Positions 1 through 22,956 of a stretch of 64,000 nucleotides of DNA are shown piece by piece. A model generated the notes under the pieces. The model saw nothing but the letters and a program-made list of their open reading frames with translations. It made no database searches and had not been told where the DNA came from. The translations under genes were made by a program, and so were the position numbers. How positions within the stretch are numbered: position 1 is the first letter of the stretch; every line of letters begins with the position of its first letter. Origin of the DNA: Palleronia caenipelagi (GTDB taxonomy: Bacteria > Pseudomonadota > Alphaproteobacteria > Rhodobacterales > Rhodobacteraceae); contig NZ_VFSV01000006.1 in assembly GCF_007004065.1 (NCBI RefSeq), positions 1 to 64,000 of the forward strand, in the 5' to 3' direction.

Positions 1-1
1 G

Positions 2-265: not shown

Positions 266-274
266 CAATCAAAT

Positions 275-299
275 TGGACCACTCAAGTGGGGCTGATCA
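275..299. mobile_element. Terminal end of the IS3-family element
   Basis: Similarity to an IS1182 transposase on the minus strand stops abruptly at about position 301. The 25 bases at 275-299, which end in TGATCA, directly follow the IS3 transposase stop. They are therefore taken as the element's terminal inverted repeat. The partner end is outside the window, so neither the repeat nor a target duplication could be confirmed. Confidence 0.55.
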
Positions 300-300
300 G

Positions 301-1057: not shown

Positions 1058-1212
1058 CGCTGATCCTCCCGCTCCACAAAAGAAGTGAATCAGCGAACGA
1101 CACCTCAATCAAGCAAGAGTTTTTCAACAAAATACGCCCCCGTTCTGTGGAAAATTACCGTTTTGCGAGCGCAGAAATGGCGGGTTTGACGACGGCATGG
1201 GTACCTTTCTTA

Positions 1213-1712: not shown

Positions 1713-1937
1713 TCCTGGTCTTGAGACTTGATGACGCCACTGAGGTGATGAACGATGAATGGATCGAGTGGCGGCGATGTTCTCCGTGTGAAGAACCATG
1801 GCAACGTGCAAACCAATGCAGGCTGGAGAGCCGCTGCGCTGTCGCGATTACCCGCATCCAAGCGCAAATTTGATGGCGGGGTCTTTGGCGGGTAACGCAG
1901 CCTAAATTTGAAATTCGATAATAAAATCGGTGGTATA

Positions 1938-1952
1938 TGGCGGAGAGGAAGG
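1938..1952. repeat. Left attachment-site copy (att core)
   Basis: TGGCGGAGAGGAAGG is identical to the tRNA-Ser 3' end at 10485-10499, in the same orientation. The flanking bases differ on both sides, so the shared core is exactly 15 bp. It begins at the complement of the tRNA CCA, as expected for integration into a tRNA 3' end. Confidence 0.85.
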
Positions 1953-2070
1953 CCGCCATGATATGATACTATAAGTTCCACTGAAGTCCTAATAATACAA
2001 TGATAACAGTTCGATAATGGCTTCACTTGTGCAGTAACTTCCGGCAAGGTCCAATGCCATCCTCGCATTA

Positions 2071-2092
2071 GTGGGGGATGTTTTGGGGGATG
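2071..2092. repeat. Paired GGGGGAT repeat, left end (putative integrase arm site)
   Basis: Two copies of GGGGGAT lie 11 bp apart, immediately before the integrase start. A 22-bp match (19 identical positions) occurs in the same orientation near the other end of the island at 10408-10429. The location between att core and integrase suggests arm-type integrase or excisionase binding sites, but binding is inferred only. Confidence 0.5.
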
Positions 2093-2096
2093 TATA

Positions 2097-3332
2097 GTGA
2101 CTTCAGGCGCCAGAAGGCCCGAACGAGCGTTGACCGCACGTTCCGTCGAATCCGTGACAAAGCCGGGTAAATACTTTGACGGTCAGGGGCTCTTTCTTCG
2201 CGTCGCAAAGAACGGCGCAAAGCAGTGGGTGCAGCGCATCACGATCCGGGGCAAGAGATGTGAGTTAGGGCTTGGCGCCCCGCCTGCTGTGTCGCTCGCG
2301 GTTGCGCGTAAGATGGCACTCGAAAATCGGGGGATCGCGATGACCGGGGGCGATCCCCTCGCGGAGAAGCGGAAGGCGCAAGGCGCCATGACATTCACCG
2401 ACGCCACCGACAAGTATCTCGCGACGAAGTTATCGGAGTTCAAAAACGAGAAGCACCGGAAGCAATGGCGCGCCACCCTCGACACCTACGCGCTGTCAGC
2501 TATCGGCAATCGACTGGTCTCGGAAATCACGGTCCATGATATTTTCCGAGTCTTAGAGCCGATCTGGACAACCAAGACTGAGACCGCATCCCGGCTGCGT
2601 GGCCGGATTGAGAACGTGCTGTCATGGGCGACCGTTGCCGGACACCGCACTGGCGACAATCCCGCGCGCTGGCGGGGGAACCTGTCGGAGATGCTACCGA
2701 AGCCCGCGAAGATCGCCAAATCTGGAAACCAGCCCGCTCTATCGCTTGCGGATGCTTCGCGCTGGTGGAGCGATCTGCAAAAGCGCGACGGTATGGCGGC
2801 GCGGGCTCTGGAGTTCCTTACCTTAACGGCGGCGCGGTCAGGTGAGGTGCGCGGGGCAGTTTGGTCTGAAATAGAGATGCCTGCCGATGGGCGTGACGGC
2901 GGCATCTGGGCGATACCCGCCGAACGAATGAAAAATGGACGTCCGCACCGAGTCCCTCTCACGCAGGAGGCCGTCACGGTATTGAAGGCGCTACCCCACG
3001 CCGAAGGCTCACCCTACGTGTTCTGGGCGCCGCGTGGCGGGATGCTGTCTGACATGAGCATATCTGCCGTGATGCGCCGAATGCAGGCCACCGAAGAAAA
3101 GGCGGGCGGGACAGGCTATCTTGACCCGACAAGTCAGAGACCTGCGGTGCCGCACGGGTTGCGCTCAACATTTCGGCAATGGGCGGCAGAACGGGGCTAT
3201 CCGCGAGATATGGCTGAAATGGCCCTCGCGCATTTTATCGGCAGTGAAGTTGAGCGGGCTTATCAGCGATCCGATCTAATTGAGCGGAGGCGCGATATGA
3301 TGGCTGAATGGGCTCAGTTTCTGGCGGATTGA
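2097..3332 (+). CDS. P4-type tyrosine integrase
   Basis: This 411-residue protein starts at a GTG just after the paired GGGGGAT repeats. It is a site-specific recombinase that inserts and excises the island at tRNA-Ser. Residues about 10-95 form the DUF4102 arm-binding domain (GLFLRVAKNGAKQWV), 97-185 the SAM-like core-binding domain, and 210-400 the catalytic domain. The visible catalytic set is R247 in TAARSGE, H353 and R356 in PHGLRSTFRQW, H379 in LAHF and Y389 in VERAYQRSD. Length and all key residues are intact, so it is probably functional. Position next to the att core fits an integrase autonomous from other mobility genes. Confidence 0.95.
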   Translation: MTSGARRPERALTARSVESVTKPGKYFDGQGLFLRVAKNGAKQWVQRITIRGKRCELGLGAPPAVSLAVARKMALENRGIAMTGGDPLAEKRKAQGAMTFTDATDKYLATKLSEFKNEKHRKQWRATLDTYALSAIGNRLVSEITVHDIFRVLEPIWTTKTETASRLRGRIENVLSWATVAGHRTGDNPARWRGNLSEMLPKPAKIAKSGNQPALSLADASRWWSDLQKRDGMAARALEFLTLTAARSGEVRGAVWSEIEMPADGRDGGIWAIPAERMKNGRPHRVPLTQEAVTVLKALPHAEGSPYVFWAPRGGMLSDMSISAVMRRMQATEEKAGGTGYLDPTSQRPAVPHGLRSTFRQWAAERGYPRDMAEMALAHFIGSEVERAYQRSDLIERRRDMMAEWAQFLAD

Positions 3333-3687
3333 TAGTTGCGAATCACCCTCAATTGCCTCTTTGAAGGTGCCAAGATCGGAAAACTGTAGTCGGAGTCATT
3401 GCTCGAAAGCGGGTTCTCCTTAGTTTTCCACAGGGTTGCACCAAGGCCAAACCCGTCAAAATCTCAACGTTAGTTCGTCAAGCCGAATCACGTGTGGAGA
3501 ACCCTAAATTTTCCATTGCCAGCGCACTAGAGATTGAGTGTTCTAGAGGGAACCAAAGCTGAACACGGCATCGGCTGAGGTGGCTCCGCGATACTGTTGA
3601 AGCAGATCGCGAAGCCGGGGTGAAATGTCCTCTCCCGGAATTTCGCCTCTTAGCTAGCCGGACAACGAGCCAAGAGGCAAGCAGATT
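3333..3687. other. Intergenic stretch inside the island
   Basis: No convincing gene is seen in these 355 bases. Short frames on both strands lack a start with a ribosome site and any recognisable family. The stretch presumably holds the promoter of the alpA-primase operon that follows and the 3' region of the integrase. Confidence 0.5.
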
Positions 3688-3894
3688 ATGAGTAAGCAGG
3701 CAACGAACCAAGCAGAGCGTATTCTGAGGCGTCCTGAAGTTGAGTCACAGACCGGGCTGTCCCGATCAACGCTCTATGCGATGATCGCCGAGGGGACCTT
3801 CCCGCGCCCCGTGAAACTTGGGAAGCGCGCCGTCGGGTGGCATCAGTCACAGATCTCCGACTGGCTCAATAGTCGCGTCACGAACATCGCGTAA
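3688..3894 (+). CDS. AlpA-like DNA-binding regulator / excisionase
   Basis: This 68-residue protein has the AlpA/MerR-like winged helix-turn-helix pattern: ILRRPEVESQTGLSRSTLYA, then GTFPRPVKLGKRAVGW and a helix with IxDWLNSR. AlpA proteins control integrase expression or act as recombination directionality factors in P4-like elements. It is the first gene of a tight cluster with the small protein, the primase-like gene and the DUF3987 gene, a common order in alphaproteobacterial tRNA islands. Whether it excises the island or only regulates transcription cannot be told. Confidence 0.85.
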   Translation: MSKQATNQAERILRRPEVESQTGLSRSTLYAMIAEGTFPRPVKLGKRAVGWHQSQISDWLNSRVTNIA

Positions 3895-3898
3895 AGCC

Positions 3899-4078
3899 AT
3901 GAAATTCGAACAGATGACCGGCGCGCAGGAATGCGTGACCGGGGCGGCGGAGCCTTGCCCTGCGAATGCGGCGGGCTCAACCGATCAAAGCGAATGGCAA
4001 GCCATTGGCGGTATTGCGGCGAAACTGGTCGCAGACGCTGCGCGGAAATATGCGGAGCGGTCCAATGCAGAGCGCTGA
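3899..4078 (+). CDS. Small hypothetical protein (59 aa)
   Basis: An ATG at 3899, four bases after the alpA stop, opens a 59-codon frame ending in KYAERSNAER. The frame overlaps the start of the next gene at 4065, which is typical of translational coupling. The sequence is Ala-rich and has no recognised domain. Similar short frames often sit between alpA and the primase gene in such islands; no function is claimed. A longer frame from 3818 overlaps alpA and is rejected. Confidence 0.55.
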   Translation: MKFEQMTGAQECVTGAAEPCPANAAGSTDQSEWQAIGGIAAKLVADAARKYAERSNAER

Positions 4079-4958
4079 GGTAATGACTAAGAGCCTCGGA
4101 GGCAATTGGTACGGCAGTTACGGCGTCGCGCCTTGTCCGGTCTGCCAACCCGAACGACGCTCCGACCAGACCGCCTTGACACTTGGCGACGGTCACTCCG
4201 GGTTGCTGGCGCATTGCAAAAAATCAGGCTGCGAATTTGGCTCCATTCTTGCGGCAGCGGGAATAACCAAAGATGACGTCTGCCCTCCTGACCCGGCGGT
4301 GCGCGCCCGGCGGGACGCGGAGAGGCGCGCCGATATAGAACGGCGCGCGCGGCAGGCTCACGCCCTCTGGTGCGAGGCGAGGCCGATCATAGGCACCATC
4401 GCCGAGGGGTATCTGCGTGACGCGCGGGCAATCCATGGTCCGTTGCCTGATAGCCTCCGCTTTCATCCTGCGGCGTGGCATGGGGCAACGGCTTCGCGGT
4501 ACCCGGCCCTAGTGGCGCGGGTGGATGGCGCCGATGGGTTTGCGGTCCACCGCACATACCTGGGGCCTGACGGTTTGGGCAAAGCGGATCTGACCCCGGC
4601 CAAGGCGATGCTCGGCGCAACCGCTGGCGGCGCTGTGAGGCTTCAGGAGGGCAATGACAGACTAGTTGTTGCTGAGGGTATCGAGACGGCACTTTCGCTC
4701 GCCTGCGGCCTTTTACACGGTCCTGCGGCGATCTGGGCGGCGCTGAGTACCAGCGGGATGACAGGGCTCAGGCTGCCGAATGAACCCGGACGGCTGGTCA
4801 TCGCCCCTGATGGCGACCCGGTGGGCAAAAAGGCTGCACAAACACTGGCCGAAAGAGCCGATGCGCTGGGTTGGTCCGTGTCGCTGTTACCGGCGCCTGA
4901 GGGGTCCGACTGGAATTCGGTCATTCAGAAGCGGAGGTCTGGCAATGCACACTCCTGA
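4065..4958 (+). CDS. Zinc-finger / Toprim primase-like protein
   Basis: The ATG at 4065 is preceded by GGAG at 7 bp, giving 297 residues; ATG 4083 is an alternative. Near the N-terminus CPVCQPERRSD followed by HCKKSGCEF forms a CHC2-like zinc-binding module. The C-terminal half carries a Toprim fold of the virulence-associated/P4 primase type: VVAEGIETALSLACGL with the catalytic Glu, and LVIAPDGDPVGKKAA with the Asp pair. Such proteins make primers or support replication of the excised element. The gene overlaps both neighbours, so it is co-translated with the DUF3987 ATPase. No polymerase-type primase active site was recognised. Confidence 0.85.
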   Translation: MQSAEVMTKSLGGNWYGSYGVAPCPVCQPERRSDQTALTLGDGHSGLLAHCKKSGCEFGSILAAAGITKDDVCPPDPAVRARRDAERRADIERRARQAHALWCEARPIIGTIAEGYLRDARAIHGPLPDSLRFHPAAWHGATASRYPALVARVDGADGFAVHRTYLGPDGLGKADLTPAKAMLGATAGGAVRLQEGNDRLVVAEGIETALSLACGLLHGPAAIWAALSTSGMTGLRLPNEPGRLVIAPDGDPVGKKAAQTLAERADALGWSVSLLPAPEGSDWNSVIQKRRSGNAHS

Positions 4959-6438
4959 GCCGATCCCGTTCGCGCCGGACTGGCCGGACCCGGCCCCGCG
5001 TTTTGTGCGCCTTGACCTACCACCGGCACCAGCATTGCCGCTGCGCGATGTTTTGGCACCGCGACTGGCGCAATGGGTCGAAGACGCTGCCGAAGCAAAA
5101 GGCGCGCCGCCGGATTATGTCTTTGCCGCGCTGCTGTCAGTTGCGGGGGCGACTATCGGAAATAGCAGATGGGTTTCGCCTTGGCGCGGATGGACGGAAC
5201 CGCCGGTCATCTGGTCAATGTGCGTCGGGTTGCCCAGCGCGGGGAAAAGCCCCGCTATCGACGCTGTTTTGCAACCGCTCCGCGCCGCTGAGCGACCGTT
5301 GCGAGAAGCGGCAGAAGCTGAATTGCAGGCGTGGGCGGAAAAGGCCGAAGTCGCGAAAATTGCCGAGGCCGCTTGGAAAGAGGGGGTGCGGGCCGCGATG
5401 AAAGCTGGCGACAAAGCGCCCGATAAGCCCAACGGTGCCGACGCAGGCCCCATGCCGCACATTCCGCGACTTGTCGTCAATGATGGGACGATTGAACGCC
5501 TCGGCGCCATACTTGCGCGGCAACCGCGCGGCACATTGCAGATGCGGGATGAGTTGGCAGGATGGCTCGAAGGGATGGCGCGTTACTCCGGCGGCGGGTC
5601 GGATCGACCCTTTTGGCTGGAAGCCTATGGCGGACGGGGTTTCACCGTTGAACGCATGGGGCGGGAACCGTTGACCGTGGACCGGCTGACCATTGGCGTT
5701 ATGGGAGGCATCCAGCCTGACCGCCTGAAAAGTCTGTTGTTCAAATCCGACGATGACGGGCTCTTAGCGCGCTTCCTCCCGATCTGGCCTGACCCCGCGC
5801 CATTGCGGCGCCCGGAAGCATGGGCAGATGAGGTGTTGATTGACCGCGTCTTGGCGCGGCTCCTATCGCTGGAAATGGTCAACGACGACGAAGGCACGCG
5901 GCCATGGGTCGTGCCGTTCTCTGAGGGTGCGCGGGGGATGATGGATGACTTCCGCGAGGCGGTTCGGGAATGGGAGGCGGGGACTGATGGGCTTTTGCTG
6001 TCGTTTATCGGCAAGTTGCCCGGACTGTCTGCCCGGCTGGCGTTAGTCCTGGCCCTTCTCGACTATGCGGCAGACGACGCAGAAGCCCCGCGCGAGATAA
6101 CGGTCAACGCCTATGGGCGGGCTTGTCATCTGGTCGAGGCATATCTCCTGCCGATGGCACGGCGCGCCTATGCGGATGCTGCGACACCGAAAGCCGACCG
6201 GGCCGCGCGCAGATTGGTTACGCTGATCCGCGATCAAAAATGGCGATCCTTTTCGACGCGGGACGTCATGCGGCTCGACCGCGCGGGGTTGGCGTCCAAG
6301 CGGGATCTCGACCCCGCGCTGGCAGCGCTCGAAGATGGTGACTGCATCCGGTCTGTTGAGGCGCCACCGCGACCGCAAGGGGGAAGGCCGCAACGCCTCT
6401 ATTCGGTCAATCCGGCTCTGCTGGCAGGGACGTCATGA
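4945..6438 (+). CDS. DUF3987-family P-loop ATPase (replication-associated)
   Basis: The start at ATG 4945 has GGAGG 7 bp upstream and gives 497 residues. A Walker A motif, GLPSAGKSP, lies at residues 95-103 after a hydrophobic strand (VIWSMCV). Downstream are RGTLQMRDELAGWLEGM and WLEAYGGRGFTVERMGR, both typical of the DUF3987 helicase-like family. These proteins follow Toprim primases in islands and are thought to act as replicative ATPases, although no activity is proven. The gene overlaps the primase gene by 14 bp and the next gene by 4 bp (ATGA). The C-terminal 100 residues resemble a winged-helix segment. Confidence 0.85.
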   Translation: MHTPEPIPFAPDWPDPAPRFVRLDLPPAPALPLRDVLAPRLAQWVEDAAEAKGAPPDYVFAALLSVAGATIGNSRWVSPWRGWTEPPVIWSMCVGLPSAGKSPAIDAVLQPLRAAERPLREAAEAELQAWAEKAEVAKIAEAAWKEGVRAAMKAGDKAPDKPNGADAGPMPHIPRLVVNDGTIERLGAILARQPRGTLQMRDELAGWLEGMARYSGGGSDRPFWLEAYGGRGFTVERMGREPLTVDRLTIGVMGGIQPDRLKSLLFKSDDDGLLARFLPIWPDPAPLRRPEAWADEVLIDRVLARLLSLEMVNDDEGTRPWVVPFSEGARGMMDDFREAVREWEAGTDGLLLSFIGKLPGLSARLALVLALLDYAADDAEAPREITVNAYGRACHLVEAYLLPMARRAYADAATPKADRAARRLVTLIRDQKWRSFSTRDVMRLDRAGLASKRDLDPALAALEDGDCIRSVEAPPRPQGGRPQRLYSVNPALLAGTS

Positions 6439-6839
6439 CGCGCTGGCTCGACGCTGCCCGGAAGGTTCAACAGACACTGACAGAACCGACAAAACCGACA
6501 AAACTCCGATCTGAGCCGGTTCTGTCAGTTAAATCGGTTTTGTCCGGGCAAGATGAGCGCGACGCCTCGCGCCAGATAAGCGACGCTGAAAGCGGGGGAC
6601 CGGTGAAAGCTGGTTCCCGACCGCCGGACCCTAAGATCACCCTAAGGCTTAAAAAGGTTAGAGTTCAGAATCGACCGCAAGACGGCAGCAACGGCAGGTC
6701 GGTTGCGGGCAGGCCGCTCACGTGGACCGGGCGTCCCGTGAGTGAAACCGCTTGGCGCGGGTTGAGCGAATGGCAGCGGCATGGGCCGGGTTGGAAAGTC
6801 TGGTGTGCGCTACGGCGCGACTGGCTTGACCCGAATTAG
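6435..6839 (+). CDS. Small basic hypothetical protein (134 aa)
   Basis: This gene begins in an ATGA overlap with the DUF3987 gene, so it is probably part of the same operon. The protein is basic and apparently disordered in the middle (SVLSGQDERDASRQISDAES…). A compact Trp-rich end (ETAWRGLSEWQRHGPGWKVWCALRRDWL) could be a small DNA- or protein-binding module. No family is recognised. Its fixed position after the ATPase suggests a replication accessory role, which is inference only. Confidence 0.7.
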   Translation: MTRWLDAARKVQQTLTEPTKPTKLRSEPVLSVKSVLSGQDERDASRQISDAESGGPVKAGSRPPDPKITLRLKKVRVQNRPQDGSNGRSVAGRPLTWTGRPVSETAWRGLSEWQRHGPGWKVWCALRRDWLDPN

Positions 6840-7134
6840 ATCAAGACTTGCGCCATCTGCCCGCTCAGGCCACCGCCGAGGCCTGCATGACGCTCAGAAG
6901 AACGCACCCGAGACAAAAGCGGCATGATCGTTGCATCTTGGGACTGCCCAAATGCGCCAAAGTCCGAGAAACATGCGGAAAACACAACTGCAGAGCCCTC
7001 GCAATCGATGATCTGGCACCCGACGCCGCCGTCAGAGTTGAAAACACCCACCAAAACGGTCAAGCTCCCGCTAAAACCAAGATACTTGGGAAATATCAAA
7101 TAAAACCTACAATATCAGCAAGCTGGATAAAGCT
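6840..7134. other. Intergenic stretch separating replication genes from cargo
   Basis: About 295 bases mark the shift from GC-rich operon DNA to AT-rich cargo. Two opposed frames exist here (plus 6848-7138 and minus 6836-7099). Neither has a good ribosome site or a recognised family. The minus frame ends in Ser/Gly-rich sequence and could be a decayed gene end. The AT-rich last 70 bases probably contain the promoter of the next gene. Confidence 0.4.
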
Positions 7135-8352
7135 ATGAGCAAAGCAACGAACCACATTTACGTAAAATATTTTGCAGCATTCGCATTATGCTCTTTCATG
7201 GGCAACCCGGCTTCCTCTGAAAGCAATAAATTAGATTATTGGATTGAAAGTTTAGTCTATGAAATTAAACAGAATACCGTATTTGAAAAATCTGAACATA
7301 CACACCCAAAGATTCTAGAAGAAACGGCAAAATTGGCTGGCTTTGAAAACACCGAAGACTTCCTAAATATAGCTAGGTCAGGATATGAAATATCTAAGAA
7401 ACAAATAGAAATTTGGGACGTGTCTGCAGTTAACGAAAATATCTTGCAGGGAAGCGCAGAAAACTGGGATTGGGCTTTAGTTCCAATCTTGTCTAGGGCA
7501 AAAATGGTTCAAAGTGGGGATATGCTTCCAGACAGCTGCAATGTTCATTTGTTTTTTTGGAATCCAAAAGGATGGTATAGAACCAGCATATCTGGTCAAA
7601 CTAGTAAAATCGCGACCGTGAGCGCAATACCAGAACTGCGTAAAGCGGTATATTCCACGCCCCCAACGTGCTTGGTTTCATCCACCAGTGATGCGGGCCA
7701 ACAATCGCCCGTAAATGATGATGAAATAAATAAAAAGAAAGAATTATATGAAATCATTTACGGTAACTACCCTACAAACTGTACCCCCAAATTTTTAGTT
7801 CAGAAAAACTCGTGCATCGTTGAGCATATTTCTTTCTGCTCAAATGACACTATTTTTATCACACAAGACAAAGAAGGAAGCGCGGAAAAAGTAAATTATA
7901 CCTATTCCAGTGATGGTAAAATTCAAATGTTGTGGGGGAGTTATCAAGGTTATCCAGTCTGGGTGGATATCCCCATCGAAGAACAAAACGGTTTTATTCC
8001 TATCGCCGCATTAAAGGAAAATAGGGATGGTTCTCTCACCGAAAGACGCCGTTTTCTGGCACCAATATCTAACGACGATTTGGAATACACATTAAAAGCC
8101 GAGTTCTCTTCAGGAGAGTCTCTAATATTAGATGGTGTCAAACTTTTATCCGTGACTGGAGAATACACCTATAATTACCCAGACAAAATTACCAATATGA
8201 CCGAAGGCTTTTTCATAATGACTGATTATAATGTGATTATAGAAGGGACTAAATCCATAGGTCCCGTACGGGATGAAACACCTCGAGAAATACTGAGGAC
8301 ATCACAAGCAACATCGCGTGATGAAGCGGGTAAATATCAATGCCGTGATTAA
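7135..8352 (+). CDS. Exported hypothetical protein (405 aa), AT-rich island cargo
   Basis: The protein begins with a Sec-type signal (KYFAAFALCSFMG, then NPASS as a probable cleavage region), so it should reach the periplasm or outside. The mature part contains several spaced Cys residues (for example in NSCIVEHISFCSN, PPTCLV and a terminal YQCRD), which could form disulfides. It is rich in beta-forming and polar residues. No domain is recognised. Base composition is strikingly AT-rich compared with everything around it, with AAA/ATA/TTA codons common, indicating recent transfer from a different host type. It lies upstream of, and in the same direction as, the SNIPE-like nuclease gene; a functional link is possible but unproven. 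Confidence 0.75.
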   Translation: MSKATNHIYVKYFAAFALCSFMGNPASSESNKLDYWIESLVYEIKQNTVFEKSEHTHPKILEETAKLAGFENTEDFLNIARSGYEISKKQIEIWDVSAVNENILQGSAENWDWALVPILSRAKMVQSGDMLPDSCNVHLFFWNPKGWYRTSISGQTSKIATVSAIPELRKAVYSTPPTCLVSSTSDAGQQSPVNDDEINKKKELYEIIYGNYPTNCTPKFLVQKNSCIVEHISFCSNDTIFITQDKEGSAEKVNYTYSSDGKIQMLWGSYQGYPVWVDIPIEEQNGFIPIAALKENRDGSLTERRRFLAPISNDDLEYTLKAEFSSGESLILDGVKLLSVTGEYTYNYPDKITNMTEGFFIMTDYNVIIEGTKSIGPVRDETPREILRTSQATSRDEAGKYQCRD

Positions 8353-8385
8353 GTGAGTTAGTCGAGGGCGCAGATCCCTTTTCCA

Positions 8386-8466
8386 TTATGCCGCCGCACT
8401 CACATCAAACTCGAAGTGGATGCGGTCATAAGGGAACTTTACGCCCTTCTCTGTCCGATTAATCAC
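8386..8466 (-). pseudogene. Short C-terminal coding remnant
   Basis: On the minus strand a 26-codon frame reads …EKGVKFPYDRIHFEFDVSAAA before a TAA. It has strong coding character for its length but no proper start region, and a stop precedes it directly. It looks like the surviving 3' end of a deleted gene, left between the two cargo genes. The parent family is not identified. Confidence 0.3.
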
Positions 8467-8634
8467 CCCTTATAAAAAGCACTATCGAACACGAAACGCG
8501 ACGACAGGCCGAACGGCGGCAATGAGACTAGCTTGTTAATCCATCATAGCGCAGCGAAGGTCTGCAATACCTATTTTTGATTGCCTCCACGGCGCTGGTC
8601 AAATTGAAAAATAGAAATTGAAAGGCTGCAAATA

Positions 8635-9981
8635 ATGGAACCTTTTATAGTCTTCGTAATCGCTTGGTTGCTCCTACCCATCATTCTTTTGATATTTTGG
8701 CTTCGCGCGCGTGGTGCGAAGAACCGCGCCGAAAAGCGGATTACAGAAGCGGAATTGACTGCCGCATCGCTCAGGGAAAAATATGCGCCAATCACATCTG
8801 TTGAGAATGAAGTCTCGGCGCTCAGGGACAAAGCAACACAGTTACAGAAGCAAATCGACGAGACTCGCAGCTCCTATTCCGATAAGCGCGCCACGCTAAA
8901 AAAATTGGAGCAACAAGTCGCAATCTATGACGAAAAGCTCTCTTTCGCGGAGTTAGGTGTCTATGAACCCCATTTCGAGTTCAACGATGCTGACGAATAC
9001 AAGCAAGAGATCAAACGTATCCGCGACCTCCAGAAAGCAATGGTTTCGGCCAAGACCTCGACTCTCTGTCCGACTGACTGGCAAGTAGACGGAAGCCGCG
9101 CCAAGGGTCAGACGATGATTAGCCGCCAGACCCGTCTGACCATGCGCGCTTTCAACAACGAATGCGAGGCCGCAATCGCAAACACGCGCTGGAACAATGT
9201 CAACGCGATGGAGAAGCGTATCCTCAATGCAGCCAAGCAAATCGACAAAACAAACGAGTCTATGAATCTGTTTATCAGCGAGGATTATGTCGGCCTCAAG
9301 CTGGACGAATTGCACGCGACTCACGAATATCGTGAACAGCTCAAGTTCGAGAAAGAAGAACGCGCAGAGTTGGCGCGCGCGGAACGCGAAGAGAGAAAGT
9401 TACTGGCGGAAGCCGAAGCGGCGGAACGTGAAGAGGAACGGTATCAGAAGCTATTGGATAAAGCGCGCTTAGAGGCGGGCAGAGATGAAGACCGCATTGC
9501 GGAGTTGGAAGCTGCATTGGCTGAAGCCCACGCGACAAGCGAGCGCGCCCGCGCAATGGCCGAGATGACAAAATCCGGCTATGTCTACATTATCTCGAAC
9601 ATTGGTTCCTTTGGCGAGGATGTAGTTAAAATTGGCCTGACGCGGCGGCTTGAACCAGAAGACAGGGTAAAAGAGCTAGGTGACGCAAGCGTCCCGTTCG
9701 GCTTCGACACCCACGCCATGATCTACTCGGATGAAGCCCCCACCCTCGAAAGCGCTCTTCACAAAGAGTTCGCGGACCGCCGAGTGAACGCTTCGAACCT
9801 GCGTAAAGAGTTCTTCCGGGTTGGCTTGGAAGAGGTCGAGGATGCGGTGAAGCGTCTTGCCCCATCCGCCAGTTTCTTCTCAGACCGTGAGGCGCAGGAG
9901 TGGCATGAAACCCTTTCACGCCGCAAAGAGGCGTTGAAGAACATGGTGCGACCATCAGACGAATTACCGCAAGCCATATGA
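8635..9981 (+). CDS. Membrane-anchored DUF4041 + GIY-YIG nuclease (SNIPE-like anti-phage protein)
   Basis: This 448-residue protein has one N-terminal membrane helix (residues about 4-23), a basic linker and a short coiled coil (40-100). A DUF4041-type region follows (about 105-230: FAELGVYEPHFEFNDADEYK … ICPT-like TLCPTDW … TMRAFNNECEAAI). A long charged coiled coil (232-312) leads into a C-terminal T5orf172/Mug113-type GIY-YIG domain (315-408). In that domain GYVYI supplies the GIY strand and VKIG the YIG strand, with DRVKELGD carrying the Arg and LESALHKEF the catalytic Glu. This order (helix, DUF4041, GIY-YIG) is that of SNIPE, an inner-membrane nuclease reported to cut phage DNA during injection. 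Location as island cargo supports a defence role. All recognisable motif residues are present. Confidence 0.9.
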   Translation: MEPFIVFVIAWLLLPIILLIFWLRARGAKNRAEKRITEAELTAASLREKYAPITSVENEVSALRDKATQLQKQIDETRSSYSDKRATLKKLEQQVAIYDEKLSFAELGVYEPHFEFNDADEYKQEIKRIRDLQKAMVSAKTSTLCPTDWQVDGSRAKGQTMISRQTRLTMRAFNNECEAAIANTRWNNVNAMEKRILNAAKQIDKTNESMNLFISEDYVGLKLDELHATHEYREQLKFEKEERAELARAEREERKLLAEAEAAEREEERYQKLLDKARLEAGRDEDRIAELEAALAEAHATSERARAMAEMTKSGYVYIISNIGSFGEDVVKIGLTRRLEPEDRVKELGDASVPFGFDTHAMIYSDEAPTLESALHKEFADRRVNASNLRKEFFRVGLEEVEDAVKRLAPSASFFSDREAQEWHETLSRRKEALKNMVRPSDELPQAI

Positions 9982-10407
9982 CCTTGAAAGCTAACGTTCG
10001 CGCAGTTGCAGCGATAGCTCACTTGGTTCGCACTCTTGCCATTGCTGCTACAACTAAGAATGGGAGGTGTCACTTCCGAGAGGGAAGTATCTAAATTTGA
10101 GAACAGCAGTAGCAAGCGACCGCAAGCAGTTCGCATATCTCCCCCCCCTAAAAAAAGGGGACATACCGGGCTGTGTAAAACCTGCTGCCCTCCTGCGCTT
10201 GCGCAGCCATGCCGCCCTAGCAAGGGGTAGGAATGTCTAGCGGCACGGCTTCCGTGTAAGATGCAGGGGGCGGTCTTACCTCTGAATTGATACCGGGTGA
10301 AACCGACTGACTCGTGCGCGGTAGCTAAACCGCAAGAAAATGTTGCGCTTCATATTCACGCAAGCCTGACGAACCGTCCGAAGCATTCCGAGACGATACA
10401 GGTCAAT
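9982..10407. other. Non-coding right part of the island
   Basis: No supported gene lies here. Visible structures include an inverted repeat with the arms ACTTCC and GGAAGT just before 10095, and a CCCC-A-rich-GGGG hairpin near 10141-10160. The latter could terminate transcription of the nuclease gene. The rest is featureless until the paired GGGGGAT repeat. Confidence 0.4.
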
Positions 10408-10429
10408 GCGGGGGATATTGTGGGGGATG
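10408..10429. repeat. Paired GGGGGAT repeat, right end (putative integrase arm site)
   Basis: This 22-bp block repeats the one at 2071-2092 with 19 of 22 positions the same and the same 11-bp spacing between the two GGGGGAT units. It lies 55 bp inside the tRNA end of the island. Presence near both ends, in the same orientation, supports a role in recombination. Confidence 0.5.
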
Positions 10430-10484
10430 AACCTCTTTGCACGCAAATTTTTCCGTTTGCAATCAGGTAGTTGCTTAATTTGGC

Positions 10485-10499
10485 TGGCGGAGAGGAAGG
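10485..10499. repeat. Right attachment-site copy within tRNA-Ser
   Basis: The 15-bp core TGGCGGAGAGGAAGG is part of the acceptor and T-arm end of the tRNA-Ser gene. The same bases recur at 1938-1952. The tRNA stays complete, so integration restored its 3' end or left it untouched. Confidence 0.85.
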
Positions 10500-10574
10500 G
10501 ATTCGAACCCTCGAGACGGTTTCCCGCCTACACACTTTCCAGGCGTGCGCCTTCGACCACTCGGCCACCTCTCC
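10485..10574 (-). tRNA. tRNA-Ser (anticodon GGA)
   Basis: On the minus strand the gene starts GGAGAGGTGGCCGAGTGG and ends CCTCTCC-G-CCA, with a 7-bp acceptor stem and an encoded CCA. The anticodon loop reads CTGGAAA, giving anticodon GGA (10538-10540 on the plus strand). A long variable arm follows (the paired CGGG…CCGT region), as in class II serine tRNAs. The T loop is GGTTCGAATCC. It is the attachment site of the neighbouring island. Confidence 0.96.
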
Positions 10575-10653
10575 GAGGCCGCGTTTAGCGAAGAGTGATG
10601 GGGGAGTGCAAGGGGGCCTGTGGGGAATATCTCTCGATCCTCACGAAAAAAGA

Positions 10654-13092
10654 TCAGCGGCCGTCCGCATCACCCTCTGGATCGGCGTGCTGAGCGGTGG
10701 ACCGTACGCTTGAGATCGTCCCACTCTCAGGTTTTGCGGCGTGGTCACGATCCGACATCTCGCGCATCCAGACATCCCGCTGGGCGTAGGGAATCTCAAT
10801 GCCTTCTTCAGTGAACCGCAGGATGATCTCGTGGTTCAGATCGGTCTCGACGTTCAGCAGAAAGTTCACATCCCGCAGGATTGTCCGCAGCTCGAATTCC
10901 AGCCCGTTCTCGCCCGCTCCTTTGAAATACACGAACGGCGCCGGGTTCAGGCTGACCATCGAGTGCCCTTCAGCGATTTGGGTGAGGATCGCTTCGACCC
11001 GCCGCGTATCGGTGCCAAAGGCGACCCGCACCGGAATAATCGCCCGACCCACATTGTTGCCATGGGTCCAGTTGGTGACCGTTCGGGAGACGAGATCTCC
11101 ATTTGGAACAATCAGGTCTCGGCGGTCGAAAGTCTCGATCCGGGTAGAGCGGACGGAAATGTCGCGGACGTAACCCATCTGGCCGTTCACTTCGATCCAG
11201 TCCCCCTCCGTAATCGGACGTCCGATCAGCAGAATGATCCCGGACACGAAGTTCGACACGATGTTCTGGAGACCGAAGCCAATACCAATCGAAAGAGCCC
11301 CAGCGACAAAGGCGAGGCTTGAGAGGTCAATGCCGGCGCTGGTAAACGCGACAATGCCGGACAGGGCGATCCCCACGTATCCGACCCCAGCCACGATGGC
11401 ATTGCGCGCGCCGATATCCAGTCGCGTCCGCGTCAGCACCTGATGGCGCAGGGTCAATTGGACAAAGCGGGTCAGCGCGTAACCGAGGAAAAAGACCAAA
11501 AGGATCGCCAGAATGTCCTGCGGCGAGATCCGGGTCTGACCGATTGTGATCCCCGCCCGGAAGGCAGACCAGACATCTGTCAGATCCGACACTCGTGCGC
11601 CCCAGATTAACGCCAGAAGCGGGATCGCGGCGAGGGTCAGCAAAAAGCCCAAAAGCACCGGCAGGAGACCTTCACGCTGGCTCTCGGGAACCCGCCGGGC
11701 CAGCGCGTACAAGTCATAGCTGAGCTTTTGGAGGATCAGGATCAGAGCGCAAAGCGCCAGAGTTAGGGCCTCGGCGCGCAGGAGATAGCCGGCGGCAGTC
11801 GAATAGCCAGCAACCGTCAGCACGGCTCCTCCGACAGAAACCACCAAAGCAGCGCGACCAAACAGCCCGGCAATGGTTTTCAGCAGGCTGCGTTCGTCGT
11901 CTTCGTCTTCTTCGTCCACCGTTGCAAAGGTGGACAGGTCCCGCCCGAGACGGATGAGGGACAGAGCCAGCAGTACATGGGGCACAAGCAACAAGGCGCC
12001 GGCTGCCGTCGAATCACATCCGCTGATCCGGATGACGGTCAGGGCAACCGCATTGAGGGAAGTTGCTATCGCGACCAGCCAGATGTTGCGCCTCGCGCGT
12101 GTGGCGAGACCGGGCTCCACGTCAACCGGGCTGGGGCGACCTTCGGGCAGGAGCATCGGAGCAATCCAGTTGCCCGCGATCAACGGCAGAAGGGTAGCCT
12201 GCACGCCCGTTACCAGAACATCCACCGCCTCACCCCGCAAACCACTCAGAGCCACTGCTGAGCCGAGGAGATGCAGGCCGATCAGAGCGGGAATGAGCTG
12301 ACCCAAAGAGACAACAAAGGCGACGAGTCCCGGACGACGTCTGGCTGCCCCAAACCCGTCCAGCCAGCCCTCAATCCAGCGACGCCAAGTTCCCGCGCGC
12401 AACAACAGAATTAGCCCAATCAAGAGCACCGGGAGCGCTAGTATCACGCCGTCAGTCACATTGCTCCGCCAGCCTTCGCTGGAGAAATGAGCGCGAGTGT
12501 CCCGGCCAATGGCAGATGCCGTATCGAACACAGCCTGAACTGCACCGGGCCATGAGGTCGGGAACAGCGGCGACGGGGTGCGGTCGAGGAATTGCTCCTT
12601 ATAGCTCTTGCGGATCTGCTGATCGAGCGCCGCGATCAGCGCGTTCGCGTCCGCAAAGGCCTCTTGCGCGGCCAGAACCGGCTCATAGAGCGTTTCCAGC
12701 TCGCTGTTCAGGTAGTCACGTCGTTGCCGGATCTGAGGCAACTCGGGCGCCTGCCCATCCGCTGGCGGAGCGCCGAGGGCGTTGAGCATGCCCCGGAGCA
12801 CTTCTATCTGTGCATCGTTGATGCTTTGCGCTTCGAGGAAGGCCTCGCGCCTCTGGGCCAGATCCGCGCGAACCGCCTCCAGACGGGCCACGTCCTGCTC
12901 CCGGTCGAGGAGATCCCGAACCTGGTCCGCGACCTTCGGCCACTCGCGCAGGCCCGGGATCTGGTCCAGCACAGCCTGCTCGATGGAAGGCGACGCGGCC
13001 TCAGAAAGCGGAACGTCCCCCCCCTGATCCTGCGCCACTCCAGCGACCGCCAGAGACAGCCATAAGAGCAGTGCGCCGAGAAACCGTATCAT
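10654..13092 (-). CDS. MscS-family mechanosensitive channel with DUF3772 periplasmic domain
   Basis: The 812-residue protein opens with a signal peptide ([18 protein letters not shown]). A helical periplasmic DUF3772-type region (about 35-190) follows, then roughly ten membrane segments. The MscS pore and beta domain are near the C-terminus ([21 protein letters not shown], then [12 protein letters not shown] and RNVIVPNGDL-like [10 protein letters not shown]). It should release solutes on hypo-osmotic shock. Its start overlaps the cysK stop by 4 bp, so it is co-transcribed with cysK. The size resembles MscK/YbdG-type large channels rather than the 286-residue MscS. Ion specificity is not predictable. 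Confidence 0.9.
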
Positions 13093-14120
13093 ACGTCAGC
13101 AAAGACTTTCGGCAGATCCATAGTAGCGGTGTCCAGCAACCAATCAGGCTGCGGCAGGCCCTTCTCCGCAAGGAACTCCGGGTTGAAAATCTTGGACTGA
13201 TAGCGCGTGCCGTAATCGCAGAGGATCGTGACGATGGTGTGGCCGGGACCGAGTTCACGGGCGAGCCGCATGGCCCCCGCCACATTGACGCCAGTGGATC
13301 CGCCCATGCACAGACCTTCGTTCTGCAACAGATCAAACACCACGTTCAGCGCCTCCGCATCGGGGATGCGGTAGCAGAAATCGGGAGTCAGGCCTTCGAG
13401 ATTGGCCGTGATCCGGCCCTGCCCGATGCCCTCCGTGATCGAATTGCCGGGGTTGTCCTCGCCCGTGTAGATCTTGAACATGCCCGCGCCCTCGGGATCG
13501 GCGAGACCGATCTTCACGCCTTTGCCCTGCAACGCCTGCGCCACGCCGGCCAGCGTCCCGCCAGAGCCTACCGCACAGATGAACCCGTCCACCTTGCCGC
13601 CGGTCTGCTCCCAGATCTCCGGCCCGGTGGTCTCGGTATGGGCCTGCCGGTTGGCCGTGTTGTCGAACTGGTTGGCCCAGATCGCCCCGTGGGGCGCCGT
13701 CTTCGCCAGCTCCGCCGCCAGACGGCCGGAATATTTCACATAATTGTTGTCGTTCTTGTAAGGCACCGCCGGAACCTCAACGAGCTGTGCGCCCGCGAGC
13801 CGGACCATATCCTTTTTCTCCTGACTCTGGGTCTCGGGCATCACGATAACCGATTTGAAGCCCATGGATGTTCCGACCAAGGACAGCCCGATCCCGGTAT
13901 TGCCCGCCGTGCCCTCGACAATGGTGCCGCCCGGCTCCAGCAGTCCCTTCTCCACCGCATCGCGGATGATGAACAGCGCCGCGCGGTCCTTGACCGACTG
14001 GCCCGGATTCAGGAATTCGGCCTTGCCGAGGATCGTGCACCCTGTGGCCTCGGAGGGACCCTTCAGCCGGATCAGAGGCGTTCCGCCGACCGCTGCGGCC
14101 AAATCGCTGTGAATCTTCAT
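13089..14120 (-). CDS. cysK: Cysteine synthase A
   Basis: O-acetylserine sulfhydrylase makes L-cysteine from O-acetylserine and sulfide using PLP. The PLP lysine lies in NPGQSVKDRAA, the substrate loop is EGTAGNTGIG, and the phosphate-binding loop is GSGGTLAG. At 343 residues it is slightly longer than enteric CysK, with extra C-terminal sequence (PQPDWLLDTATMDLPKVF) common in alphaproteobacteria. ATG 14120 has a GGAG 8 bp upstream and is preferred over the GTG at 14129. It overlaps the downstream channel gene by 4 bp, an unusual pairing. Confidence 0.93.
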   Translation of the reverse strand: MKIHSDLAAAVGGTPLIRLKGPSEATGCTILGKAEFLNPGQSVKDRAALFIIRDAVEKGLLEPGGTIVEGTAGNTGIGLSLVGTSMGFKSVIVMPETQSQEKKDMVRLAGAQLVEVPAVPYKNDNNYVKYSGRLAAELAKTAPHGAIWANQFDNTANRQAHTETTGPEIWEQTGGKVDGFICAVGSGGTLAGVAQALQGKGVKIGLADPEGAGMFKIYTGEDNPGNSITEGIGQGRITANLEGLTPDFCYRIPDAEALNVVFDLLQNEGLCMGGSTGVNVAGAMRLARELGPGHTIVTILCDYGTRYQSKIFNPEFLAEKGLPQPDWLLDTATMDLPKVFADV

Positions 14121-14177
14121 CTCCGGCACTCCATTATCTCAGTTGGACAATATGAGTATGGTGCCCGGAGGCTGAAC

Positions 14178-15281
14178 TCAAGAGAAGGTGCCGTCCTCAC
14201 GCGCCCGTTGCAACCACAAGGCCGAGACCAGCAGCGGGCCGTTATTGGCCTCCCCGGTCCGGATCAGCTCCATCAGCTGGTCAAAAGAGATGAGGTGCAG
14301 CCGCAGATCCTCATTCTCTTCGGCAAGCCCGCCCAGACGCGGCAGCGTATCGGGCAAATCGGCCTCGGCCACGTAAGAGACCAGATATTCGGCCAGCACG
14401 CCGGGGCTGGGGTAGTAATTACCGATCTTGTGCAGGCGCGTCAGGGTCAGGGCCGCCTCTTCCCCCGCCTCGCGATGGGCTGCCTCCTCAAAGCTCTCCC
14501 CGGCATCGACCCGGCCCGCGATAGGCTCAAGCGACCAGGGATACGTGTCGCCCCGCAGCCAGATCCCATAGCGGAACTGTTCGACCAGCAGCACCCGGTC
14601 GCGCTGGGGATCATAGGGCAGCACGGTCACCGCGTCAGCGGCATGCAGCCCCGCCCATTCCACCTCGGTGCCTGCCCCTCCATCGCTGTGAGGGATGCGC
14701 ATTTGGGTCTGTCCGACCGCGAAATAGTGGCAATAGGGCACCTCGTGTTTGAGGATCTCGACGCTCGCCCGAAGGGCGGGATTGCGGAGCAATTCCGGGC
14801 GCGGACTCCGGGCCGCGCGGATCGCCGAGTGCGCGCGGGCGCGGATTTGCGGCATCCGATAGTGCAGGGCTGCGCCGTCGATCTGGCCAAAGAACCGCAT
14901 CGCCTCACCGGCCGCCAACCGAGTCATGGGTCCGCTTGTTTCCTGCCACTCCGCCAGATCCCAGGGCACCCCGGCCCCCTGCCCCTCTGGCGCGCGATAG
15001 AGCATCACCGGGCGTCCGTTGCTGAGCCGTGCGGTGTGCCGGACATAGGCAAACCCGGCCTCATAGTAATCGAGCCGCGCCACCTGTTCGGAAGTCAGCC
15101 GCACCACAGCGCCTTGGGCCACCGCCCCGGGGCGCTCCACGAGGATCGGCCAATCGCCAGCTGCGGCGCGCTCAATGGCATGCCATGGCAGCGCACCCAC
15201 TTCCTGCATTACAGGACCACCGGCCACGCGCTCCAGCAGTTCGGGATCGCGTAACGTCCCGAACAGAAACACGTCGGTCAT
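14178..15281 (-). CDS. AIG2/GGCT-like domain fused to NUDIX hydrolase (ADP-ribose pyrophosphatase type)
   Basis: The 367-residue protein has two parts. Residues 1-150 match the gamma-glutamylcyclotransferase-like AIG2 fold (VFLFGTLRDPELL … YYEAGFAYVR). Residues about 165-360 are a NUDIX domain with the metal-binding box GRVDAGESFEEAAHREAGEEAAL, preceded by LVEQFRYG as in ADP-ribose pyrophosphatases. The NUDIX half probably hydrolyses ADP-ribose or a related nucleotide sugar; the AIG2 half is of uncertain use. The stop overlaps nothing downstream, while the start overlaps the cfa stop by 4 bp (ATGA), so cfa and this gene form an operon. Confidence 0.88.
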   Translation of the reverse strand: MTDVFLFGTLRDPELLERVAGGPVMQEVGALPWHAIERAAAGDWPILVERPGAVAQGAVVRLTSEQVARLDYYEAGFAYVRHTARLSNGRPVMLYRAPEGQGAGVPWDLAEWQETSGPMTRLAAGEAMRFFGQIDGAALHYRMPQIRARAHSAIRAARSPRPELLRNPALRASVEILKHEVPYCHYFAVGQTQMRIPHSDGGAGTEVEWAGLHAADAVTVLPYDPQRDRVLLVEQFRYGIWLRGDTYPWSLEPIAGRVDAGESFEEAAHREAGEEAALTLTRLHKIGNYYPSPGVLAEYLVSYVAEADLPDTLPRLGGLAEENEDLRLHLISFDQLMELIRTGEANNGPLLVSALWLQRAREDGTFS

Positions 15282-16489
15282 GCGGGGCGCTCTACGGTGA
15301 TCTGGGTCACATCACAGTTGCCGCTGTGAAAGGTCGCCGCGCAGGAGGTCAGGTAGAAATTCCACATGCGCCGGAACCGGTCATCGAAGCCCATCGCCGC
15401 GACCTGCTCCCACTTGTCGTTGAATGTATCGAACCAGCGCCGCAGGGTCAGGCTGTAGCTTTCGCCGAATTCCAGTGAGCGCAGTACCGTCAGTTCCGCA
15501 TGGCGAATCTGCTCGCGCAACACCGTGGGGCTAGGCAACATGCCGCCCGGAAAGATGTATTTCTGAATGAAATCAGGGGCACGGCGGTAGGTTTCCCATC
15601 GGCTGTCTTGCACGGTGATGATCTGCAGCGTTGCCCGCCCGCCGGGCTTCAGCCGCTCGCGCACCGCGTTGAAGTAGACCGGCCAGTATTTCTCGCCCAC
15701 CGCCTCGAACATCTCGATGGAGGCGATTCCGTCATAAGTTCCCGTCTCATCACGATAATCCTGAAGCTTGATCTCCACCCGGTCCGACAGCCCCGCCTTT
15801 GCGATCCGCTCCACCGCGTATTTATACTGCTCCTCGCTGATCGTCAGGCAGGTCACCCGCAAGCCGCGCTCACTGGCCGCGTATTCCGCAAATCCACCCC
15901 AACCGCAGCCGATCTCCAGCACGTGATCGCCCGGCTGTGCCCCCATCTGGTCCACCATAGAGGCATATTTGGCAATCTGCGCGGCCTCGAGGCTCTCTTG
16001 TCCACTCTCGAACAAGGCCGACGAATAGGTCATGGTCTCATCAAGCCACAGGGCGTAGAAATCATTTCCCAGATCGTAATGGGCGGCGATGTTCTTCTTC
16101 GCCTGCCGCTTCGTATTGCGGTAAAACCAGAACCGCAGCTGCTCAAAGAGACGCACCAGCCCCATCACCGGGAAACCGTCATAGATCTCGTCATTATCGG
16201 CGTGGAACAGATCCAGCAGCGCTTGCAGGTCGGGGGTACTCCACCATTCGTCCAGATAGGCTTCGCAGAAGCCCAGATCTCCCTCGCGGATCAACCGGGC
16301 AAAGATATCCGAGTTGTGGATCACGAGTTCCGCCACCGGCCCCGGATTACGCCCTTCGGCACGGAATCGGCGCCCGTCCGGCAGCACAAAGTCCAGCCGA
16401 CCGTGCTCCATCCGATCTGCCATATGGAACACTTGCGTAAAGTAACGTGGCAGATGGGACTGGCCTTCGACGCGCGTCAAAACGGTCAT
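15278..16489 (-). CDS. cfa: Cyclopropane-fatty-acyl-phospholipid synthase
   Basis: This SAM-dependent enzyme adds a methylene bridge across unsaturated acyl chains of membrane phospholipids. The SAM-binding motif is VLEIGCGWGGFAEYA. Family signatures include HYDLGNDFYALWLD, MTYSSALF and SIEMFEAVGEKYW, with the bicarbonate-site Glu region near the end. ATG 16489 has GGGGAG at good spacing and gives 403 residues; the in-frame ATG at 16516 is less likely. It is followed without gap by the AIG2-NUDIX gene. Confidence 0.93.
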   Translation of the reverse strand: MTVLTRVEGQSHLPRYFTQVFHMADRMEHGRLDFVLPDGRRFRAEGRNPGPVAELVIHNSDIFARLIREGDLGFCEAYLDEWWSTPDLQALLDLFHADNDEIYDGFPVMGLVRLFEQLRFWFYRNTKRQAKKNIAAHYDLGNDFYALWLDETMTYSSALFESGQESLEAAQIAKYASMVDQMGAQPGDHVLEIGCGWGGFAEYAASERGLRVTCLTISEEQYKYAVERIAKAGLSDRVEIKLQDYRDETGTYDGIASIEMFEAVGEKYWPVYFNAVRERLKPGGRATLQIITVQDSRWETYRRAPDFIQKYIFPGGMLPSPTVLREQIRHAELTVLRSLEFGESYSLTLRRWFDTFNDKWEQVAAMGFDDRFRRMWNFYLTSCAATFHSGNCDVTQITVERPA

Positions 16490-16599
16490 GAAATCTCCCC
16501 GGAAACCTCTTTTCAAACAGGTTAACCGGCTCCGGGAGAGGGTGCCACGGTGAATTGCCCAAGCCGTCCATTTGGTCGCGCTCCGAACCCGTGCACAAA

Positions 16600-16633
16600 G
16601 AAAAACGCCGCCTCCCGCAGGGGGAGACGGCGC
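16600..16633 (-). terminator. Rho-independent terminator after bioY
   Basis: Read on the minus strand, an 11-bp nearly perfect stem (CGCCGTCTCCC … GGGAGGCGGCG) with a 5-base loop is followed by TTTTT. It sits 28 bases past the bioY stop. Confidence 0.85.
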
Positions 16634-16660
16634 CGATCCGAAGTGTATCCGTGACTTGGA

Positions 16661-17248
16661 TCAGGCCTTGCGGCGCGACAGCCCAGTGACCGCAACAGCA
16701 GCAAGGACCGCCTTGATCGCATCACCGATGAGGAATGGCAGCACCCAGCCCGTCCAGAGCGTCAGAGCCGAGGTCGAAGCCCAGGCGGCCTCGACACCGA
16801 AGGCAGAGGCCACTGCAAAGGGCCATGCCACGCCCGGGATATAGAGCATGGCTGTGGCGTAGAGGCTACAGACGGCTGTCGAGATGACACCGCGCGCCAG
16901 TCCACGCTCAATCGCAAAGCCTGCGAACCAAGCCATTGCCACGTAACCGAGCAGGAAGCCGCCCGTGGGTCCAGCCATGTAGGCAAGACCCGCGCCACCA
17001 TTCGCAAAGACCGGCAGACCCATGGCGCCCTCGGCCAGATAGGCCAGAACAGTCATCGCGCCGAGACGCGAGCCGAGCGTCAGGCCCACCATCAGGATGG
17101 CCAGCGTTTGCAGCGTCACCGGCACCGGCCAGAGCGGGACAGCCACCTGAGCGGCCACGGCGATGAGGGCCGAGCCCCCCAGCACAAGGGCAGCCTGCTG
17201 CCAGAACGCGCGATCCTGACCGCGCAGAAGGGGCGTTGCTTGGGTCAT
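16661..17248 (-). CDS. bioY: Biotin transporter substrate-binding subunit BioY
   Basis: This 195-residue, highly hydrophobic protein has about six membrane segments and the BioY signatures VPLWPVPVTLQTLAILMVG and GPTGGFLLGYVAMAWFAG. It is the S component of an energy-coupling-factor biotin importer. No bioM/bioN ATPase or T-component gene is adjacent, so it may act alone or with a shared energising module. No BioR-like operator was recognised in the short upstream region. A strong terminator follows. Confidence 0.93.
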   Translation of the reverse strand: MTQATPLLRGQDRAFWQQAALVLGGSALIAVAAQVAVPLWPVPVTLQTLAILMVGLTLGSRLGAMTVLAYLAEGAMGLPVFANGGAGLAYMAGPTGGFLLGYVAMAWFAGFAIERGLARGVISTAVCSLYATAMLYIPGVAWPFAVASAFGVEAAWASTSALTLWTGWVLPFLIGDAIKAVLAAVAVTGLSRRKA

Positions 17249-17344
17249 CTTTTACTCCTCATAGGGCTTTGCGCTATTTCTCGGCCTTCCCCGGCCCCAC
17301 GTCAATCCCTTGCCAATCGATCCCTTTGGTTCCATGACGCTAAC

Positions 17345-18001: not shown

Positions 18002-18013
18002 CCGATCCTTCGG

Positions 18014-22950: not shown

Positions 22951-22956
22951 TCGTCA

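Follow-up and report, generated by a model that had tools for sequence, protein, structure and literature searches.

A SNIPE (PD-Lambda-1) family nuclease gene carried as cargo of a tRNA-Ser element in Palleronia caenipelagi

Introduction

The closest described system is SNIPE of Escherichia coli, earlier named PD-Lambda-1, in which a transmembrane helix, a helical stalk, DUF4041, a long helix and a GIY-YIG domain follow one another in that order (PMC13190303). According to the parts of that report on which we draw, E. coli SNIPE associates with ManYZ against lambda and hits other siphoviruses without ManYZ, apparently via their tape measure proteins; homologues are described in 33% of well-sequenced clades across many phyla, 59% of them with one predicted transmembrane helix and 7% with two (PMC13190303). 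The same named system also works in bacteria remote from the enteric group. In Streptococcus thermophilus, one PD-Lambda-1 is reported to give more than 3 logs of phage protection and a second one, 98.5% identical to the active protein, to give none (PMC12322248), so membership in the family does not guarantee defense.

The window analyzed here is the first 64,000 nucleotides of contig NZ_VFSV01000006.1 of Palleronia caenipelagi (family Rhodobacteraceae; assembly GCF_007004065.1). A sequence-only reading of this DNA had pointed to a SNIPE-like membrane nuclease in a tRNA island of a phototrophic alphaproteobacterium, and phototrophy is borne out by two photosynthetic reaction centre genes in the window (Photo_RC, PF00124; 53005-54677). 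The protein is an ordinary further member of the SNIPE family; the delimited element that carries its gene, the apparent movement of the gene without its neighbors and a host that lacks ManYZ are modest additions to what has been described. Taken together, we consider it very likely that the product is a SNIPE-family anti-phage nuclease, carried as horizontally acquired cargo of a tRNA-Ser element, that protects both the cell and the element from tailed phages.

Domain organization of the protein

The gene lies on the plus strand at 8635-9981, exactly the interval first proposed, and encodes 448 amino acids in an intact frame from an ATG at 8635 to a stop codon ending at 9981. A Pfam profile search placed DUF4041 (PF13250) at residues 168-222 (E = 1.3e-16; 60.6 bits against a cut-off of 27), T5orf172 (PF10544) at residues 315-408 (E = 9.3e-19; 68.3 bits against a cut-off of 20) and MUG113 at residues 331-407 (E = 1.1e-16). 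All three score above their respective gathering scores, and the DUF4041 and T5orf172/Mug113 assignments that had been made by eye hold. Two PADLOC PD-Lambda-1 models match over the full length of the protein (PDLC03977, E = 1.3e-161, residues 29-436; PDLC03976, E = 3e-158, residues 29-445), and the Pfam domains stand in the SNIPE order, in agreement with the architecture suggested earlier. By its sequence, then, the product of 8635-9981 is a SNIPE (PD-Lambda-1) family protein, with a predicted layout of a hydrophobic helix (residues 5-23), DUF4041 (168-222), a linker helix (about 223-311) and a GIY-YIG domain of the T5orf172 type (315-408) that holds E372; PADLOC, Pfam, alignment and hydropathy together establish the family, the domain order, the catalytic residue and the helix.

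For comparison with the tested protein, we took as the E. coli SNIPE reference a 500-aa E. coli phage protein encoded in a phage record annotated PD-lambda-1, because E223, N250, L253, W257, E264, K305, I308, T319 and E414, the nine residues that the SNIPE paper names, occur in it at the same numbers. The window protein is about 50% identical to this reference over residues 58-430, and its residues 1-57 gave no BLAST alignment to it; it is also shorter (448 aa against 500 aa), with a shorter linker. All nine named positions align. Catalytic E414 corresponds to E372 of the window protein, and W257 to a histidine, in a column that holds R 28 times, H 24, Y 15, F 9, Q 2, N 1 and W 1. This alignment comprises 80 distinct sequences after removal of six duplicate rows (three rows lack a start) and, since its members were chosen by similarity to the window protein, it is not representative of the whole SNIPE family. 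Within it, E372, R337, R338 and R344 are identical in 80/80 sequences, which upholds the earlier statement that the GIY-YIG domain has its Arg and Glu in place. Identity to the window protein averages 34% at residues 1-28, 34% again at 29-94, 74% in DUF4041 and 81% in the nuclease domain, the same regional pattern of conservation that the SNIPE authors describe in the relevant part of their report (PMC13190303).

The N-terminal membrane helix of the sequence-only reading is likewise supported. Judged by hydropathy and K/R distribution, which are the basis of this call in place of a dedicated predictor, the most hydrophobic 19-residue stretch is residues 5-23 (mean hydropathy 3.04), and the best stretch past residue 40 reaches 0.98. 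No K or R precedes the helix and six fall in the 15 residues that follow, which suggests, by analogy with E. coli SNIPE, that the N terminus lies outside and the rest of the protein in the cytoplasm. A similar transmembrane-like helix is present in 75 of the 77 members with a usable start; the two others, L017 and L043, have uncertain starts.

The sequence-only reading had also described an unusually long, acidic/basic coiled coil that might act as a spacer, and this did not stand. Between DUF4041 and the GIY-YIG domain the window protein has 89 aa, compared with 101 in E. coli SNIPE; the linker ranges from 89 to 101 aa over the 80 sequences, and 89 aa, found in 32 of them, is the shortest class, so the coil is an ordinary one. 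Its charge (30% D/E and 19% K/R) is like that of the E. coli linker (25% and 21%).

An AlphaFold2 model built from 53 sequences (mean pLDDT 77.8, pTM 0.45) has helices at residues 3-50, 56-106, 119-138, 155-182, 186-206, 216-279 and 285-313, followed by a mixed alpha/beta domain, the nuclease domain, which is its lowest-confidence part. Searched against a viral structure library, the model matched one phage protein across 388 columns (E = 5.5e-19), as well as several T5 Orf172-type phage protein domains. A fold search of the PDB with the model gave no match at E <= 0.001, and a search of solved structures with the sequence gave none at E <= 0.1.

Host background and proposed mode of action

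The host differs from E. coli in that its genome, which is 99.7% complete, lacks both ManY/ManZ families (PF03609 and PF03613); the same two families were found in E. coli as a positive control and also matched in B. subtilis and L. lactis. ManYZ is not a defining feature of the system, given that the E. coli protein works without it too. Its absence does mean that, if the window protein defends, it would do so via tape-measure recognition or via another membrane partner.

Topology, DNA cutting and tape-measure recognition are carried over here from the E. coli work. By that analogy, the N-terminal helix would hold SNIPE in the inner membrane with the remainder of the protein in the cytoplasm; DUF4041 and its surroundings would bind both DNA and the tape measure protein that a siphovirus brings to injection, while cutting of the phage DNA during entry would fall to the GIY-YIG domain. 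When no phage is present, attachment to the membrane would keep the protein apart from the chromosome. In the window host this defense would proceed without ManYZ, and by protecting the cell from tailed phages it would protect the element as well.

An alternative is that SNIPE also acts on other incoming DNA, for instance that of gene transfer agents, siphovirus-like particles that are common in Rhodobacterales. According to the available sections of the SNIPE paper, the E. coli protein distinguishes self from non-self by its location and by the injection apparatus, not by DNA sequence, which would favor such a wider action, but it does not block plasmid transformation (PMC13190303), and we regard this alternative as very unlikely. 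For the preferred reading, defense against tailed phages, an intact SNIPE in a host without ManYZ offers a natural test between recognition of the tape measure protein and recognition of an inner-membrane partner, a choice that the SNIPE authors leave open in the text on which we draw (PMC13190303).

The integrated element

As proposed earlier, the gene sits in a tRNA island. A tRNA-Ser (GGA) gene on the minus strand (10485-10574) is the integration site, and 15 bp of its 3' end recur without mismatch on the plus strand at 1938-1952; this left att repeat and its partner inside the tRNA gene (10485-10499, plus strand) bound an element of 8.56 kb (1938-10499). All genes between the repeats lie on the plus strand, in the order tyrosine integrase (2097-3332; PF22022, PF13356, PF00589), 68-aa AlpA-type regulator (3688-3894; PF05930, E = 2.7e-21), primase-like DUF7146/Toprim protein (3966-4958; PF23639, PF13362), helicase-like DUF3987 protein (4780-6438; PF13148, E = 3.9e-67; PHROG DNA helicase, E = 2.2e-27), 134-aa backbone ORF (6435-6839), 405-aa ORF (7135-8352) and SNIPE. 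The start of the DUF3987 gene is uncertain, and the gene as called overlaps the preceding Toprim gene. Element ends and cargo position, as read from the DNA, support SNIPE as the cargo of a tRNA-integrated island. Inside the two ends are paired GGGGGA-N6-GGGGGA motifs (2073-2090 and 10410-10427, both plus strand), which are also seen inside both ends of the related elements L129 and L132 (three of six elements examined, the window's included) and are probably arm sites of the integrase or excisionase.

The 405-aa ORF is possibly a second cargo gene. It has no Pfam, PADLOC or PHROG match, and no relative of it was found in 119 family or 384 class genomes except its own. By eye its N terminus resembles a signal peptide, and at 39% G+C it adjoins SNIPE. 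Bordering the left att site are transposase pieces (DUF772, 563-1108; DDE_Tnp, 1213-1959), with an IS3-like piece recognized by eye at the contig edge; as the contig begins at window position 1, the left chromosomal flank of the element is out of view.

P4-like and PICI-like satellites and related integrative elements are small, integrate at tRNA genes, encode an integrase, AlpA, a primase and a helicase, and carry exchangeable defense cargo. The window element shares their small size, the tRNA site with att repeats, all four of these gene types and a slot for exchangeable defense cargo, so its plan is P4/PICI-like. It differs in that no helper, packaging, capsid or capsid-remodelling gene was recognized among its main ORFs with Pfam and PHROGs. 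Structural and lysis genes are likewise absent from the main ORFs scanned (all six with Pfam; five with PHROGs, the Toprim ORF left out), which speaks against a complete prophage.

The DUF3987 protein was detected at E <= 1e-60 in 12/295 genomes of the family, the window's own counted, and we fetched the corresponding elements from 7 of the 11 others. A tRNA gene stands at the expected end in six of these seven cousins (Ser in four, Arg in one, Ala in one), AlpA is present in five of the seven, and an att repeat in all but one of the six that have a tRNA; the exception, L131, shows neither repeat nor integrase. The 134-aa ORF is shared with L129, L133 and L134. L129 and L131 occupy the same tRNA-Ser and mscK/cysK site as the window element and do so without SNIPE, and none of the seven fetched elements has a SNIPE match. 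The cargo slot lies between the helicase gene and the tRNA: L130 has a type III restriction-modification pair there, L132 a PDC-M48 candidate pair with a KAP NTPase, and L133 a sulfotransferase, and in L129, L131, L134 and L135 no PADLOC match was found among the ORFs scanned. Two of the seven cousins hence hold other defense genes in the place of SNIPE, and known or candidate defense genes occupy the slot in three of eight elements when the window's is counted. In L132 (10379-15497), PDC-M48A matches at E = 4.5e-57 and PDC-M48B at E = 1.8e-15, and the adjacent KAP NTPase, of 1150 aa, has a weak PifA match.

Defense cargo of P4-like elements and PICIs is thought to aid survival or to exclude rivals of the helper phage. 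The main role of SNIPE here might accordingly be protection of the element, through survival of element and host under phage attack or exclusion of a helper's rivals, with the same molecular action. The integrase, AlpA, primase, helicase and att repeats speak for this, as do the restriction-modification and PDC-M48/KAP genes in the same slot; that nothing like a helper, packaging or capsid gene was recognized, that five of seven cousins have no known defense gene among the ORFs scanned and that close SNIPE relatives occur outside such elements speak against it. We hold it to be possible but doubtful as the main role, next to the preferred reading of protection of cell and element alike.

SNIPE is not a fixed component of such elements, since among the flanks compared for L002-L081, some of them short, none has the full integrase-Toprim-DUF3987 backbone. 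Single distant matches occur in these flanks: integrase in L074 (39%) and L027 (30%), Toprim in L033, L034, L037-L040 and L078 (39-45%) and DUF3987 in L076 (37%). In L074 (3544-9506), from an Amylibacter MAG, a few kb separate this related integrase (39% identity) from a SNIPE (45% identity), and in L072 (9336-9704) the SNIPE relative (78% identity) is followed after about 31 bp by a predicted tmRNA gene.

Distribution and movement of the gene

One scan of genome contigs returned 108 SNIPE relatives, many from Rhodobacterales and Rhizobiales by title, of which 80 were retained; none exceeds 90% identity to the window protein over the full length. Matches were also found in 35/50,697 phage records and 186/72,556 plasmid records. 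The sequence-only reading had seen novelty in an occurrence outside enteric bacteria. Given the wide published distribution in the parts of the report consulted (PMC13190303), the relatives common in Rhodobacterales and the active S. thermophilus homologue, the host is unsurprising, and we set this idea aside; searches of one open-licence literature library listed nothing to the point about SNIPE in either Rhodobacteraceae or Rhodobacterales, or about elements of this type.

None of 13 other genomes of the genus carries SNIPE, and in the family it was detected in 10/295 genomes at E <= 1e-20, the window's own counted; seven of these ten matches run from residue 1 or 2 to at least residue 436 without a stop. 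The protein is about 89-90% identical between the window genome and Ruegeria or Maritimibacter; for comparison, within-genus identity is 79-87% for cysK (nine loci) and 47-52% for the mechanosensitive-channel gene beside the tRNA (ten congeners with a near full-length match). The G+C content is 53% in SNIPE, 62% in the element backbone and 39% in the 405-aa ORF. Arrival by horizontal transfer is the best explanation for the presence of the gene.

A recently arrived gene may also bring no useful defense, being silent or mismatched to local phages. That no congener carries it is consistent with this, and so is the pair of 98.5% identical S. thermophilus homologues of which one is inactive (PMC12322248). 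Three of the ten matching family genomes have just a fragment or a stop-containing frame, and a consensus scan found no promoter upstream of the gene on the plus strand, where a weaker candidate (TTGATT-16-TCAAAT, 8577-8604) was noted by eye. Against this, the frame of the window gene is intact, all near-invariant residues that we checked are retained, and six other loci have conserved the DNA upstream of the gene. We think a useless cargo gene unlikely, and keep to a probably functional SNIPE.

To examine what has traveled with the gene, flanks of up to 8 kb per side (at least 5.9 kb present on each) were compared among ten loci with 83-90% protein identity to the window SNIPE (the window, L002-L005 and L007-L011; L006 was dropped as a duplicate of L005). 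In 45/45 pairs the DNA in common reaches no farther than 123 bp ahead of the start codon and 64 bp past the stop, and in the 44 pairs examined for further blocks no other shared stretch of at least 150 bp passed E <= 1e-10. The widest DNA shared between the window and these close loci of other genera, with L003, is 8512-10034 on the plus strand. In another SNIPE clade (L033, L037, L039, L040 and L078), up to 7.2 kb downstream are held in common, which indicates that the method can detect longer blocks. As the shared DNA is limited to the gene and short flanks, the SNIPE gene appears from these comparisons to have moved between bacteria without its neighbors. Relaxed blastn scoring extended the blocks to as much as 712 bp on the upstream side of the gene and 133 bp on the downstream side, and added 36 other inter-locus matches, mostly at 52-58% identity, including one of 1553 bp between L003 and L008 (57%, E = 6e-66) that is probably a shared type of transporter gene; we judged these extensions to be over-extension and paralogy and kept the default scoring.

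The neighborhoods, with ORFs called mechanically, contain housekeeping families, for example glutamate synthase, S-adenosylhomocysteine hydrolase, methionyl-tRNA synthetase and cytochrome b/c1 (among the best 25 of 104 families). Among 96 neighbor ORFs of ten loci (nine of the clade and L072), there was one phage integrase family and one DNA invertase match (among the best 25 of 34 families), and PADLOC matches were few, with methyltransferases and mad proteins among them and at most three ORFs per model (among the best 25 of 27). Around the SNIPE unit, neither terminal repeats nor target duplications rose above the control in the seven of ten loci tested. Within the window, six flank matches compare with 4.19 expected, and in the compared loci the flanks as a dispersed repeat are unsupported. 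As for an empty site of the Shimia copy, of two congeners one matched the upstream gltB end alone and the other short stretches.

The simplest reading is that gene and promoter are what selection retains from many separate transfers; a dedicated mechanism that moves SNIPE is possible but unsupported. Movement without neighbors also invites the view that the protein is a self-spreading GIY-YIG/T5orf172 protein of homing or regulatory type, as T5orf172-type domains are found in many phage proteins. Yet the PD-Lambda-1 match is full length, the insertion sites of close copies have no common flanking sequence, unlike homing, and two tested members of the named system give phage defense as described in the cited portions (PMC13190303, PMC12322248); we give this view hardly any credence. 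Distinctly unlikely, too, is a combined reading in which this clade of SNIPE in Rhodobacterales forms a stand-alone unit, some 1.5 kb made up of the gene, its promoter and a short 3' tail, that a dedicated mechanism moves alone; a satellite-like tRNA element would have taken up one copy as exchangeable cargo, which there would defend without ManYZ via the tape measure proteins of local siphoviruses. The movement poses a testable question: how single defense genes cross genera without a visible mobility gene.

Three further observations concern individual loci. In L022 there is one inverted match to the downstream flank (E = 1.9e-6). In L004, from Shimia, a dispersed repeat (9416-9531) begins about 69 bp past the SNIPE stop and has whole or partial matches at nine other places in the genome. 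On contig CATOSB010000015.1, which contains L005 and L006, positions 1-15015 equal positions 15166-30180, a tandem repeat of 15.2 kb that may stem from a circular replicon with SNIPE on it, put together as a concatemer in the assembly.
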